Positions 48,681 through 53,755 of a DNA stretch of 64,000 nucleotides are shown here, piece by piece; position 1 is the first letter of the stretch; every line of letters starts with the position of its first letter. The stretch is from Kineococcus sp. TRM81007 (lineage in GTDB: Bacteria > Actinomycetota > Actinomycetes > Actinomycetales > Kineococcaceae). The notes below the pieces were generated by a model. It saw only the letters and a list, made by a program, of their open reading frames with translations, was not told the DNA's origin and searched no databases. The position numbers and the translations under genes were made by a program. The stretch covers positions 94,627-158,626 of the forward strand of contig NZ_JALBVB010000044.1 in assembly GCF_022669155.1 (NCBI RefSeq), written 5' to 3'.

Positions 48681-49313
48681 ATGAGGATCGTCGTCAGCGA
48701 GTTCAGCAGCCTGGACGGCGTCGTGCAGGCCCCGGGCGGGGCGGAGGAGGACACCGAGGGCGGTTTCACCCACGGCGGCTGGTCGATGCCGTACTTCGAC
48801 CCCGAGGTGCTGGGCGGGGCGATCGACGCCCTCATGGGCGAGACGGAGGCGCTGCTGTTCGGCGCCCGCACCTGGCGGGCCATGGCCGCCGCCTGGCCCG
48901 AGCGCGGCGGGGACGGTGACGGGTTCACCGACCGCATGAACTCGATCCCCAAGCACGTCGCCTCGCGCACCCTCACCGCCGCGGACCTGACGTGGCGGGG
49001 CTCCGCCCTGCTGCCGGCCGACGACGCGATCGGCGCGGTGCGCCGGTTGCGCGAGGACAGCGGCGCCGGTGCCGGTGGCGTCCTGCAGGTGATGGGCAGC
49101 GCCTCGCTGGCCACCCAGCTGGCCGAGCACGACCTCGTCGACGAGTACCAGCTCGCGCTGGAGCCGGTCCTGCTGGGCGGCGGCAAGGGGGTCTTCCCCG
49201 CCGACGGGCGCGCGCGGCCGCTGGAGCTGGTGTCCGCGACGACGAGCCCCACCGGCGTGCTGGTGTGCCGCTACCGGGTGGTGCGCGACGGGGCCGCGCC
49301 CGGCGGAGCGTGA
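48681..49313 (+). CDS. Dihydrofolate reductase family (RibD C-terminal-like) protein
   Basis: 210 aa NADPH-dependent reductase fold: MRIVVSEFSSLDGVVQAP, LLFGARTWRAMAAAWP, and VDEYQLALEPVLLGGGKGVF are the YyaP/YwjB-type motifs. ATG at 48681 with GGAGGAGC upstream. True substrate unknown; not the essential DHFR. Confidence 0.88.
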   Translation: MRIVVSEFSSLDGVVQAPGGAEEDTEGGFTHGGWSMPYFDPEVLGGAIDALMGETEALLFGARTWRAMAAAWPERGGDGDGFTDRMNSIPKHVASRTLTAADLTWRGSALLPADDAIGAVRRLREDSGAGAGGVLQVMGSASLATQLAEHDLVDEYQLALEPVLLGGGKGVFPADGRARPLELVSATTSPTGVLVCRYRVVRDGAAPGGA

Positions 49314-49474
49314 CGACGTCTCCGTCACCCGCGCGCCCGGAGGTCCACCGGACGGTCGACCCCCGGTTCACCCCCGTCGGCCGGCGCCCCCGCCCGTCGA
49401 GCGATCCGCGGCGCGCCGCCGATCGCCAGCCTGGACGCGTCAGCGGGTTCGCGACGACGACGGGGGTGGGAACG

Positions 49475-50878
49475 GTGCCGGTGGTCCAGGTGCGGGGGCT
49501 GCACGAGGAGTACGGCTCGAGGGTGGCGGTGGACGACGTCGACCTGTCCGTGGAGGAGGGGGAGGTGTTCGGGGTCCTGGGCCCCAACGGGGCGGGCAAG
49601 ACCACGACGGTGGAGTGCCTGCTGGGGCTGCGCAGTCCCGACCGCGGCAGCGTGCGCGTCCTCGGCCTGGACCCGGTGCGCGAGCGCGCCGAGGTGGTCC
49701 AGCGGGTCGGGGCCCAGCTGCAGGCCAGCCGGGTGCAGCCGCGGCTGCGGGTGGCGGAGGTGCTCGCGCTGTACGCGTCCTTCTACGCGCACCCGGCCGA
49801 CTGGCGGGAGGTGCTGGAGCGGGTGGGTCTGGCGGGTGCGGAGCGCACCGCGTTCGGCGAGCTGTCCGGCGGTCAGCAGCAGCGCGTCCCCGTCGCGCTC
49901 GCCCTGCTGGGCCGGTCCGAGGTGGTCGTCCTCGACGAGCTGACCACCGGGCTGGACCCCGCGGCCAGGCGCGGGGTGTGGCAGCTGGTGCGGGAGGTCA
50001 ACCGCGGCGGGACCACCGTGGTGCTGGTCAGCCACCAGATGGACGAGGTGGCGCACCTGTGCGACCGCGTCGCCGTCCTCGCCCGGGGGCGTGTGCGCGC
50101 CACGGGCACCCCGGACGAGCTCACCGCCGCCGGCGCTGACGACGGCGCCGGGCACAGCCTCGCCTTCCGCCCCCTGCCACCGGTGGACCACGGTGTCCTG
50201 GAGGCCCTGCCCGCCGTCCGGTCGGTGCGCCGCGACGGTGACCGGTGGACCGTGCCCGGCACGGCACGGCACGGCACGGCACGGCACGGCACGGCACGGC
50301 ACGGCACGGCAACCGTGGCGCAGGCGGTGCTGGCCGACCCCGGCCCCCCGGACGTCGTCCTGCTCCAGGTGCTCCGGCTGGTCGCCCGGGGGACCGGCAA
50401 CCGGGGGTGCGGGGCCCTTGACGCCGGGCACCGCCCGGGGTTCTCCTCGCAGCAGGGAGGGGTCGTGGACGACGGGTGCGGCGGTGCGCGGCGCGGCCCG
50501 AGCCTGCTGCCCACCACCTGGGGGGCGGCCTACGCGGCCACGGCACTCGCCGGTGCCGTGCGCGCGCCCGGCACGCTCCTCGCCGCCGCGGCCGTGCTGG
50601 GTGCCCTGCTGCTGGCGCTGCCGGCGCTGGCCCCGCCGGCGCTCACCGCGCACCCCCGTTCGCGTCGCGTCCTGCTGGCCGCCGCCGCCGCCGCGGCGGC
50701 CGTGGTGCCGTTCGTGGGCGGCGTCGAGGCGCTGGGGGCCGCCGGGCAGGTGGCCGCCGCGGTGCTCACCGCCGCGGGCGGCGCGCTGGCGCTGCGCGCG
50801 GCCGAGGGGGTGCAGCAGGCCCTCGACGAGACCGCACCGCACCTCCCCCGCCCCGGGTCCCCGCGCCAGGAGGCGTGA
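49475..50878 (+). CDS. ABC transporter ATPase, frame with CGGCA repeats running into a membrane segment
   Basis: 467 aa frame. Residues 1-215 form a normal ABC-2-type ATPase: Walker A GPNGAGKTT, signature LSGGQQQR, Walker B VVVLDELTTGLD (Leu where Pro is usual), H-loop SHQMDE. After about residue 260 lies GTARH repeats coded by 11 CGGCA units, then a C-terminal end whose LRLVARGTGN looks like a shortened EDAFVALTG motif. There is no stop codon before the hydrophobic stretch from 50465, so the frame continues through three to four helices. Either a fusion, or a decayed ATPase whose stop was lost. GTG 49475 or 49466. No separate ABC-2 permease gene follows. Confidence 0.75.
   Translation: MPVVQVRGLHEEYGSRVAVDDVDLSVEEGEVFGVLGPNGAGKTTTVECLLGLRSPDRGSVRVLGLDPVRERAEVVQRVGAQLQASRVQPRLRVAEVLALYASFYAHPADWREVLERVGLAGAERTAFGELSGGQQQRVPVALALLGRSEVVVLDELTTGLDPAARRGVWQLVREVNRGGTTVVLVSHQMDEVAHLCDRVAVLARGRVRATGTPDELTAAGADDGAGHSLAFRPLPPVDHGVLEALPAVRSVRRDGDRWTVPGTARHGTARHGTARHGTATVAQAVLADPGPPDVVLLQVLRLVARGTGNRGCGALDAGHRPGFSSQQGGVVDDGCGGARRGPSLLPTTWGAAYAATALAGAVRAPGTLLAAAAVLGALLLALPALAPPALTAHPRSRRVLLAAAAAAAAVVPFVGGVEALGAAGQVAAAVLTAAGGALALRAAEGVQQALDETAPHLPRPGSPRQEA
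50257..50311 (+). repeat. Pentanucleotide repeat (CGGCA)11
   Basis: Eleven perfect tandem copies of CGGCA, 55 bases, inside the ABC ATPase reading frame, coding GTARH three times over. Five is not a multiple of three, so gain or loss of one unit shifts the frame. Confidence 0.97.
50465..50878 (+). CDS. Possible separate small membrane protein
   Basis: 137 aa if started at GTG 50465, which has a strong GGGAGGGG ribosome site seven bases upstream. Three to four hydrophobic helices (AYAATALAGAVRAPGTLLA..., [37 protein letters not shown]). It is in the same frame as the ATPase with no stop between. The strong ribosome site argues for an independent gene. No known family recognised. Confidence 0.5.
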   Translation: MDDGCGGARRGPSLLPTTWGAAYAATALAGAVRAPGTLLAAAAVLGALLLALPALAPPALTAHPRSRRVLLAAAAAAAAVVPFVGGVEALGAAGQVAAAVLTAAGGALALRAAEGVQQALDETAPHLPRPGSPRQEA

Positions 50879-50884
50879 GGCGCC

Positions 50885-53755
50885 TCAGGCACCTGCAGCG
50901 GCGCGGCCGAACGCGCTGGTCCCGCTGCCCACGAGGTAGGTCACGCGGCCGGCGCCCTCCTCGAGCAGGCGCGGTCGGCCCTCGCCGCGCGCACCGCGCG
51001 AGTCGGCCGGGACGCTGACGCGGGCCCGCACCCCCACCGGGACCCGCACCTCCAGCTCGGTGCCGGTGCCCTCCTCGCGCGACCAGCGCACCTCGACCGG
51101 CCCGCGCTGCGTCCAGCGGGTGCCGGCCGCGCGCCGCAGCGCGCACACCGGGGGCCGCACCTCCACGAGGGCCGCGCCGGGGGCGGCGATCCGCACGCCC
51201 AGCAGCACCTCCTGGACGTCCACGACCGCCTGCGCGCCCCAGCCGTGCGAGTAGCTCTGGTCGTCCACGGGGTTCCACTGCTCCCAGCAGCAGGTGCCGC
51301 CGCGGGCCAGGACGTTCGCCCAGCCGTCGGCGTCCGGGTCGGTGAGCAGGTGCAGCACGGCGTCGGTGCGCCCCGCGGCGGCGAGGCCCTGCAGCAGCCG
51401 GTGCGCCGTCATCGGTCCCTGGTTCATCCCCAGGGACTGCACGTGGTCGGCGACGGCGGCGACGTCCGCCTCCGGCACGAACCCGAACGCCAGCGGCAGG
51501 GAGCTGGAGATCTGCGCAGCCCTCGCGGAGGGGGTGCCGTCGGGGGCCAGGCCGTCGACGTAGACGCCGTCCGGGCGGCGCAGCCGGGCGTTGACCGCGC
51601 GCACCAGCGCCGCGGCGCGCTCCTCGTGCCGCGCCACCTCGTCGGCCGGCCGGCCCAGCGCCCGCGCCAGCCGCGCCAGCGACGCGTGCGCGTCGACCGC
51701 CCAGGCGTTCACGGGCGTGCGCACCCCGTCGAGCGTGCCGTCCCAGTCGTAGCCGTACCGCACGGCGGCGGGCCAGTCCACGATGCCCTGCCGGTACACG
51801 GCGTTCTCCCGGCCGCGCGAACCGCCCCCGGGCAGCGCCGTGACTAGCCCGGTGGCCGGGTCGGTGGCGCGCTGCACGTACTCGCCGATCTCCACCAGCG
51901 CCGGGTGCACCTGCTCGGGCAGCTCGAGGTCCCCGGTCTCGACGTGGTGCTGCCACACCCACCCGGGGACCATCTCGGTGAAGTCGGGGATGTCGCGCGG
52001 GCCGTCGCCGTTGGGGTAGACGGCGTTCACGCGCCCGCGGAACTCCCCCTCGTACCAGTGCCGCGCCTGGGAGGCGACGATCTCGCGGATCGCCTGCCGG
52101 GTCAGCGCGCGTTCCCCGCACGCGGCCGTGGTGGCGGCCGAGATGTTGATCGCGTCGGCGGTGAACTGGCCCTTCTCGCGCGTGGGGGTGTCCAGGAACT
52201 GCTCCTGGGCGCACACCAGCGCGGAGTGCCGCATCAGCTCGAACACCTCGTCCAGCACCGGTTCGGAGCTGGAGAACCCCGCCGGGTGCGGGGCCTCGGT
52301 GTGCTGCACCACCGCGCGCACGTCGGCGGAGGTCGGCTCCTCCCCCGCGACCGCCTCGGCGGGCAGCTGCACGTAGCGGAAGCCCCAGTACGTGAAGGGC
52401 CGCAGCTCCTGCTCACCGTCGCGCTGCACGAGGTCGAACCACGTGCGGCTGCCCTGCGTGGAGGTGCGGTCGGTGGCCACCCGCCCGTCGGGGTCGAGGG
52501 TGTAGCCGGTCAGCACCCGCACCCGCCGGCCGGCGACGCCGCGGCGGAACCGCAGCACGGGCACGGCCGAGACGACCTGCCCGAGGTCCGCGACGAGCGT
52601 GCCGTCCGGCAGGCGGGTCAGCGACACCGGCTCGCGCTCGGTGCGCTCCAGCCGGGTCTCCTGGGCGTGCAGCCGGGTGAACTCCGGCGCCCCGTCGGCG
52701 CGCGGCGGCAGCGGGTGCTCGCCCACGACGACGGGTTCCTCCCAGTTCGCGCCCCGGCCGTCGTAACGGGGCCGGTCCCACCCGTCCGGTTCGGCGCGGG
52801 CGTCGTACTCCTCCCAGTAGTCGCCGGCGTCGTCGTTGCGGTAGCGCTCGGTGTAGCGGCGCGGGCTGCCGGGGACGTCGTCGACCTCGGGGGCGCACCA
52901 CTGCGGGGCGCGCGCCACGCGCCAGGTCCCGTCGCTGACGACGGTGGTGCGGCTGCCGTCGGCGTGGTCGGCGACGAGCTTCAGCAGGAACCCCGACGGG
53001 TGCCCGTCCGGGCCCGGGGGGTTCCCCTGGCAGGTGCCCACCCAGTAGTGGTAGACCACCCCGATCGCCAGGCGGGTGCCGGCGCGCACGTGCGCGGTGA
53101 CGTCGGTGGTCTGGGAGTACCCCTCCGAGGGGTAGCCGAACGCGTGGCCGCGGGCGACGACGGCGCCGTCCAGGTGCAGCTCGTACTGCTTGCTCGCCGC
53201 GACGTGCACCCGCGCCCGCACCACGGGCGAAGCCGGGACGTCCACCTCGAGCCGGGCCAGGGTGTAGTCGTCGTACGCGTCCAGGGACGTGGTGCCCGAC
53301 CCCGTCGCCGGCGGCGCGGGCACCCGCCGGACCCACTGCGCCCCGGACCAGTCGCGGTCGGTCAGGGCGGTGTCGAAACCCTCCTCGGGCGCGTACGGGG
53401 AGACGGCGCCGTCGCGGTCCCAGGTGCGCACCGTCCAGGTGAACGCCTCCCCCGGCGGCAGGTCCGGGACGGGGCAGCGCACCTGCTGGAACTCCGGCGA
53501 GTCGACCCGGCCGGTGTCGGCCACCAGCCGCCCGGACACCGCGTCCAGCAGGCGCACCTGGTACGCGGTCTGCACCTGGTCGCCGCCGGGGTGCTGCGGC
53601 AACCAGCCGAACCGGGGCGAGGGCCCCGCGCTCAGCGGGCGGACCAGGTCGTCCACCGTGAGGTGGGCGGGGACCCGGGGGTCGGTGTCCTGCACGGGGT
53701 CCTCCACGGGTTCGTCCTCCAGGGGGCCGGTCGGTGGTTCGGTCGGTCCGGTCAC
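50885..53755 (-). CDS. Alpha-L-rhamnosidase, GH78
   Basis: 956 aa without signal peptide, hence cytosolic. Order: N-terminal Fn3-like domain (about 25-130), Bac_rhamnosid_N and CBM67-like sandwich (about 150-490), (alpha/alpha)6 catalytic barrel (about 500-850) with general acid Glu in DTPTREKGQFTADA and general base Glu in CCWEQWNP, C-terminal sandwich. Removes terminal L-rhamnose from glycosides or flavonoids. GTG at 53755 overlaps the exporter stop (GTGA). Confidence 0.92.
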   Translation of the reverse strand: MTGPTEPPTGPLEDEPVEDPVQDTDPRVPAHLTVDDLVRPLSAGPSPRFGWLPQHPGGDQVQTAYQVRLLDAVSGRLVADTGRVDSPEFQQVRCPVPDLPPGEAFTWTVRTWDRDGAVSPYAPEEGFDTALTDRDWSGAQWVRRVPAPPATGSGTTSLDAYDDYTLARLEVDVPASPVVRARVHVAASKQYELHLDGAVVARGHAFGYPSEGYSQTTDVTAHVRAGTRLAIGVVYHYWVGTCQGNPPGPDGHPSGFLLKLVADHADGSRTTVVSDGTWRVARAPQWCAPEVDDVPGSPRRYTERYRNDDAGDYWEEYDARAEPDGWDRPRYDGRGANWEEPVVVGEHPLPPRADGAPEFTRLHAQETRLERTEREPVSLTRLPDGTLVADLGQVVSAVPVLRFRRGVAGRRVRVLTGYTLDPDGRVATDRTSTQGSRTWFDLVQRDGEQELRPFTYWGFRYVQLPAEAVAGEEPTSADVRAVVQHTEAPHPAGFSSSEPVLDEVFELMRHSALVCAQEQFLDTPTREKGQFTADAINISAATTAACGERALTRQAIREIVASQARHWYEGEFRGRVNAVYPNGDGPRDIPDFTEMVPGWVWQHHVETGDLELPEQVHPALVEIGEYVQRATDPATGLVTALPGGGSRGRENAVYRQGIVDWPAAVRYGYDWDGTLDGVRTPVNAWAVDAHASLARLARALGRPADEVARHEERAAALVRAVNARLRRPDGVYVDGLAPDGTPSARAAQISSSLPLAFGFVPEADVAAVADHVQSLGMNQGPMTAHRLLQGLAAAGRTDAVLHLLTDPDADGWANVLARGGTCCWEQWNPVDDQSYSHGWGAQAVVDVQEVLLGVRIAAPGAALVEVRPPVCALRRAAGTRWTQRGPVEVRWSREEGTGTELEVRVPVGVRARVSVPADSRGARGEGRPRLLEEGAGRVTYLVGSGTSAFGRAAAGA

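Follow-up and report, generated by a model that had tools for sequence, protein, structure and literature searches.

The window, a stretch of 64,000 nucleotides from the genome of Kineococcus sp. TRM81007, contains a forward-strand reading frame that opens with a GTG at 49475 and closes with a TGA at 50876-50878, comprising (i) an ABC-type ATPase of the DrrA kind, (ii) a perfect array of CGGCA pentanucleotides, (iii) a tail of coding-like sequence, and (iv) a membrane segment that may also be read from a GTG of its own (Table 1). The ATPase domain is recognized by Pfam (ABC_tran PF00005, E 8.4e-27, amino acids 20-157), and the top NCBIfam match of the protein is drrA (TIGR01188), with 205.6 bits against a curated cut-off of 312.45, the best stretch of this match ending at profile position 213 of 302. 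Compared with the DrrA/DrrB-type ABC-2 exporters (TIGR01188; ABC2_membrane PF01061), the encoded protein is alike in the ATPase domain and in about two-thirds of the drrA profile, but differs by a repeat insertion of 15 residues and by the absence of both the LEDVF-type motif and the permease. Neither sigma-70 promoters nor terminators were predicted over 49300-51000, where shuffled sequences also predict about none.

Table 1. Features of the array locus (positions in the window).
Feature	Position	Strand	Basis or remark
ABC-type ATPase, DrrA-like	49475..50345	+	homologous to the G004 ortholog to ~50345; ATPase domain upstream of the array
(CGGCA)x11 perfect pentanucleotide array	50257..50311	+	sequence scan; length gain from protein alignment with the G004 ortholog
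Tail in the ATPase frame	50346..50464	+	coding-like codons; no detectable homology to the ortholog C-terminus or permease
TGA closing the ATPase frame at 10 units	50419..50421	+	frame arithmetic
Gene for a small membrane protein of 137 aa with hydrophobic stretches	50465..50878	+	possible GTG start, GGGAGGGG upstream
Alpha-L-rhamnosidase gene	50888-53665	-	Pfam
TAG closing the frame at 12 units	50937..50939	+	frame arithmetic

The array comprises 11 units in 55 bases with 100% matches, as the sequence-only reading had reported. No other perfect tandem array (unit 1-9) of the window is as long, the runner-up measuring 22 bases. Its length is far beyond chance, since the longest perfect period-5 stretch measures 13-18 bases in 20 simulations of the window under a first-order Markov model. 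Across the genome (4,219,544 bases, 60 contigs), four or more consecutive CGGCA units occur at this single site, seen as 8 overlapping matches.

Codon-position GC supports one forward-strand frame on both sides of the array: in the ATPase frame, GC3-GC2 amounts to 0.38 over 50180-50256 (reached by 3 of 5000 permutations), to 0.41 over 50312-50464 and to 0.28 over 50465-50878 (0 of 5000 permutations in both cases). Upstream homology and codon structure together place a frame-shifting short tandem repeat within a coding region, confirming the earlier claim of a pentanucleotide run in the coding-like frame of an ABC ATPase; the further claim that the present copy number leads in frame into the membrane segment is upheld by the single open frame. 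The openness of that frame, on which the sequence-only reading had also relied, is real but carries less weight: translations show all three frames to be open across the array, so that openness through the repeat is not specific, and the 51 codons from the array to the membrane segment would stay free of stops with a chance of ~0.53, given the 76% GC of the window, which makes the open stretch as far as 50465 weak evidence alone. An assembly artefact, either a wrong unit number or a false join just past the array, is highly improbable. The genome is a draft, and the homology to the ortholog described below stops ~34 bases past the array, as a false join might produce; on the other side, the codon structure holds one frame across the array, and ordinary short reads exceed a tract of 55 bases.

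Homologues were sought in 59 genomes, namely the window's own and 58 others, and among the matches listed in the latter there is one clear ortholog, G004:C399, which shares 81% identity with the window protein over amino acids 2-282 (E 1.5e-137) and 84-85% over amino acids 2-260, the runner-up match in another genome reaching E 1.6e-80. The neighbouring GH9 gene and a nearby ABC exporter, the latter carrying Pfam ABC_tran and ABC_membrane, display 85% and 84% DNA identity between the window and G004; the divergence of the ATPase is therefore ordinary. The ortholog contains no CGGCA unit at the array site, where its GT-A-TV stretch is contiguous, and protein alignment assigns to the window protein 15 extra residues at this point, equivalent to 45 bases or nine units, a gain that therefore keeps the reading frame; the two remaining unit-equivalents are presumably ancestral. 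Arrays of six or more CGGCA units are absent from the 10 congeners examined. The ortholog fits nearly the full drrA profile (positions 1-301 of 302), although its 210.3 bits also fall under the cut-off, and the adjoining ABC-2 permease of 245 amino acids probably starts at a GTG that overlaps the ATPase stop. The two loci are homologous over ~1 kb only (49331-50345), with different upstream neighbours, a RibD_C-domain protein in the window and a short-chain dehydrogenase in G004.

Downstream of the array, collinear homology extends for ~34 bases (50312-50345; a weak BLAST row) and is then undetectable. Hidden remains of the ortholog's C-terminus or permease were considered and rejected, given that DNA and protein scores do not rise above those of shuffles: (i) against the ortholog C-terminus, 197 of 200 codon-shuffled versions of the 119 bases at 50346-50464 score as high as the real sequence; (ii) against the C-terminus plus permease, 20 of 200 do so; (iii) the protein tail scores no higher than shuffled tails (mean 19.7 versus 20.9); and (iv) for the membrane segment, compared with the DNA of the ortholog C-terminus plus permease, 21 of 200 shuffles reach the score. 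The pattern [LIVMF][EDNS][DE][VAIL][FY], which 27 of 30 homologues carry close to their C-terminus and which includes motifs of the LEDVF kind, is absent from all three frames of 50312-50880, leaving the window gene devoid of the LDEVFL-type motif that in DrrA is tied to function, according to PMC3533511, which cites Zhang, Pradhan and Kaur 2010. No ABC-2 permease adjoins the gene, the segment at 50465-50875 (137 aa) having no Pfam match, and the ortholog's permease finds three matches in the window's genome, the best with 29% identity (E 5e-6). Because homology is lost after the array and the genome holds no close permease, no frame restores the normal protein. Judged by comparison with the ortholog, the window gene lacks the normal last ~35 codons together with the permease; this absence probably reflects a loss in the window's lineage, although comparison with one ortholog does not fully establish which of the two lineages changed.

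The core of the ATPase shows no clear excess of decay. Between the window and G004, the ATPase has a dN/dS of 0.35, similar to the 0.34 of the GH9 gene and the 0.33 of the nearby ABC exporter; against five other relatives, the GH9 gene gives values from 0.26 to 0.39. Among the 68 alignment columns at least 80% conserved in 29 homologues, the window protein and the ortholog each break 5, three being common to both and two private to each; those private to the window lie at amino acids 11 (E, where 27 of 29 homologues carry K) and 148 (S, where all 29 carry P). At the 45 positions where window and ortholog differ, the residue commoner in the 29 homologues is that of the ortholog in 21 cases and that of the window in 15, with 9 ties. 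The proposal that relaxed selection reveals a pseudogene was accordingly not supported, dN/dS resembling that of two neighbours and the breaks in conserved columns being equal in number. The 3′ end may thus have been lost only recently, or else the ATPase keeps some role; the result counts against a simple pseudogene.

The membrane segment has a different ancestry from the missing permease, as far as its relatives indicate. Upstream of the GTG at 50465, GGGAGGGG resembles a Shine-Dalgarno sequence, judged by eye. Matches at E 0.01 or better occur in three of the 58 other genomes (G002, E 7e-14; G007, E 8e-7; and G028, E 0.006, doubtful), and those of G002 and G007 sit in stand-alone genes of 238 and 246 amino acids, respectively. 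The window copy corresponds to the N-terminal half of these homologues and ends ~100 residues early, with the C-terminal part absent. Since the relatives stand alone and are longer, a second, truncated gene is the most fitting interpretation of the membrane part. The idea of a permease remnant was discarded in view of the missing Pfam match, of a DNA similarity no greater than that of shuffles and of the two good relatives in stand-alone genes. The earlier suggestion that copy number may decide whether the ATPase and the membrane part are one protein or two is not supported by these stand-alone matches, which do not point to half of a split protein.

A functional in-frame fusion, in which the GTARH repeat would form a flexible linker between the ATPase and the membrane part, is to be weighed against this reading and seems unlikely. 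A single frame, open and coding-like in its codons from end to end, agrees with such a fusion, as does an ATPase core constrained like its neighbours, but among the matches listed in the 58 other genomes none passes amino acid 330 of the query, and the membrane part is only slightly more than half as long as its homologues and matches no ABC-2 permease.

Unit number would decide the end of the protein. By frame arithmetic, 10 units close the frame at the TGA of Table 1 after 313 amino acids, the present 11 units yield 467 amino acids, and 12 units extend the frame to the TAG, giving 489 amino acids; each unit gained or lost indeed shifts the frame, as had been proposed, and produces a different tail. 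These three ends, and a long perfect array of a frame-shifting unit in coding-like sequence with the same codon frame on both sides, are features expected of a phase-variable contingency locus, where slippage would toggle between the ATPase-membrane fusion (a count of 2 modulo 3) and another tail. According to PMC12699852, the density of short tandem repeats correlates with small indels in Pseudomonadota, most strongly for pentanucleotides, which also speaks for a locus of this type. The likeness extends to simple sequence repeat (SSR) contingency loci such as mod of Haemophilus influenzae, presented as a tetranucleotide-repeat contingency gene in PMC3711429; these likewise show, within an open frame, a perfect short array whose unit length is not divisible by three.

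The array of the window differs from such loci, however, in that it follows the catalytic domain and no phase completes the protein. The ATPase domain would be made in all phases, and the family C-terminus and its motif in none, with no adjoining permease at any count, so that no phase gives a complete protein that the other phases would abolish; ATPase on/off switching was rejected because the domain lies before the array. Moreover, the sole clear ortholog is arrayless, leaving no array kept or variable among orthologs, the 10 congeners lack arrays of six or more units, and the membrane gene stands alone in two relatives. A contingency locus is on these grounds decidedly unlikely, and the phase-variation switch advanced by the sequence-only reading is not supported: the anatomy of the locus leaves phase variation little to switch.

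A change in unit number could in principle affect either the tail or the way in which the membrane gene is coupled to the ATPase. A translational-coupling rheostat, in which the count modulo 3 would set where ribosomes leave the ATPase frame and so tune the membrane protein, draws on the position of the 10-unit stop, 43 bases before the GTG at 50465, on the lack of any stop before that GTG at 11 units and on an out-of-frame overlap at 12. Pairs of the drrAB type are translationally coupled, according to PMC3711429, and the stop of the ortholog overlaps its likely permease start; yet the membrane gene is not the ortholog's partner and is shorter than its own homologues, and the rheostat is very unlikely. 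In another formulation of this geometry, the unit count modulo 3 would select among three states, namely fusion, upstream stop and overlap, so that the array would switch the tail or the coupling and not turn a protein on or off; only a slim chance is given to this reading.

Long CGGCA arrays recur well beyond this locus. The scan of GTDB genomes for eight or more units retrieved at least 120 stretches (L044-L163) with 125 arrays, and among the 80 stretches listed many are records of Streptomyces, Amycolatopsis, Burkholderia or Paraburkholderia. The unit counts of the 125 arrays fall into the modulo 3 classes 0, 1 and 2 in 40, 38 and 47 cases, respectively. The codon structure through the array was then scored on either strand for the 86 arrays with at least 400 bases on each side and distinct left flanks, 39 arrays near a stretch end having been dropped. 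In this test, a composition proxy that does not amount to an annotation and is weak in low-GC genomes, none of the 86 arrays is coding-like at a threshold of 0.25, whereas 171 of the 430 control positions taken from these loci are; for the threshold of 0.20 the figures are 0 of 86 versus 217 of 430, and at 0.15, 1 of 86 (L122) versus 250 of 430. Restricting the comparison to loci of at least 62% GC gives, at 0.25, 0 of 59 arrays versus 124 of 295 controls. The window array scores 0.31 and passes these thresholds; it thus resembles the GTDB arrays in unit, approximate length and high-GC host, actinobacteria included, and differs from those tested, none of which is coding-like at 0.20 or 0.25.

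Within the order, six or more CGGCA units occur in 12 of 396 genomes, the window's own among them, and none of the 11 other arrays tested is coding-like, the best scoring 0.19 (one G340 array was left out). As to the earlier remark that the logic of contingency loci is rarely reported in high-GC actinobacteria, long CGGCA arrays recur there, though few genomes of the order carry them; it is the coding-like location of the array that is the unusual feature. Trinucleotide repeats are the most prevalent class in prokaryotic coding regions according to PMC12699852, and pentanucleotide repeats are generally not suppressed according to PMC4060949. Among the matches listed in the part of the literature covered, nothing concerns bacterial CGGCA arrays or an actinobacterial ABC gene whose phase variation is driven by repeats. 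As a further observation, (CGGCA)n arrays of up to 104 units are spread over many unrelated genomes, where they keep clear of coding-like sequence; some records carry two arrays near each other, and 38 of the 125 arrays lie 300 bases or less from a stretch end.

The explanation that we favour, and hold to be moderately probable, takes the array for a passenger: an insertion that arose by slippage and preserved the frame, in an ATPase gene whose 3′ end and permease have been lost. A short seed would have grown into a microsatellite by slipped-strand mispairing, presumably in the lineage of the window, at the Gly-Thr-Ala stretch that the DrrA-like ATPase gene encodes in its C-terminal region. 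The addition of nine unit-equivalents, or 45 bases, would have kept the frame and supplied 15 residues of GTARH repeats. The normal 3′ end and the permease would have been lost, the frame now entering an unrelated, truncated membrane-protein gene, and the array would be tolerated in a tail no longer serving permease assembly. Its length may vary in culture, which would merely swap tails on an ATPase without an adjoining partner.

Three observations pull against this passenger reading: the ATPase core is free of clear decay, the tail at 50346-50464 is strongly coding-like in the ATPase frame, which fits a translated, selected fusion, and the perfection of the array is what recent or ongoing slippage would leave. 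On the passenger reading, the locus would be a clean small case in which selection on the frame may filter microsatellites within genes, and it cautions that a coding repeat need not mean a phase-variation switch. Should the count prove to vary, microsatellite switching could be tested simply at this array, in a group on which the literature covered holds little.

The surroundings show a discontinuity as well. None of the DNA matches listed for the 11 other family genomes falls within 50266-53713; both the alpha-L-rhamnosidase gene and the membrane gene lie inside this interval, which may represent an inserted or strain-specific island. On its left side, the GH9 gene has DNA matches of 82-87% in six of the other 11 family genomes, and on its right side the ABC exporter gene has one of 84% in G004, again among the matches listed.
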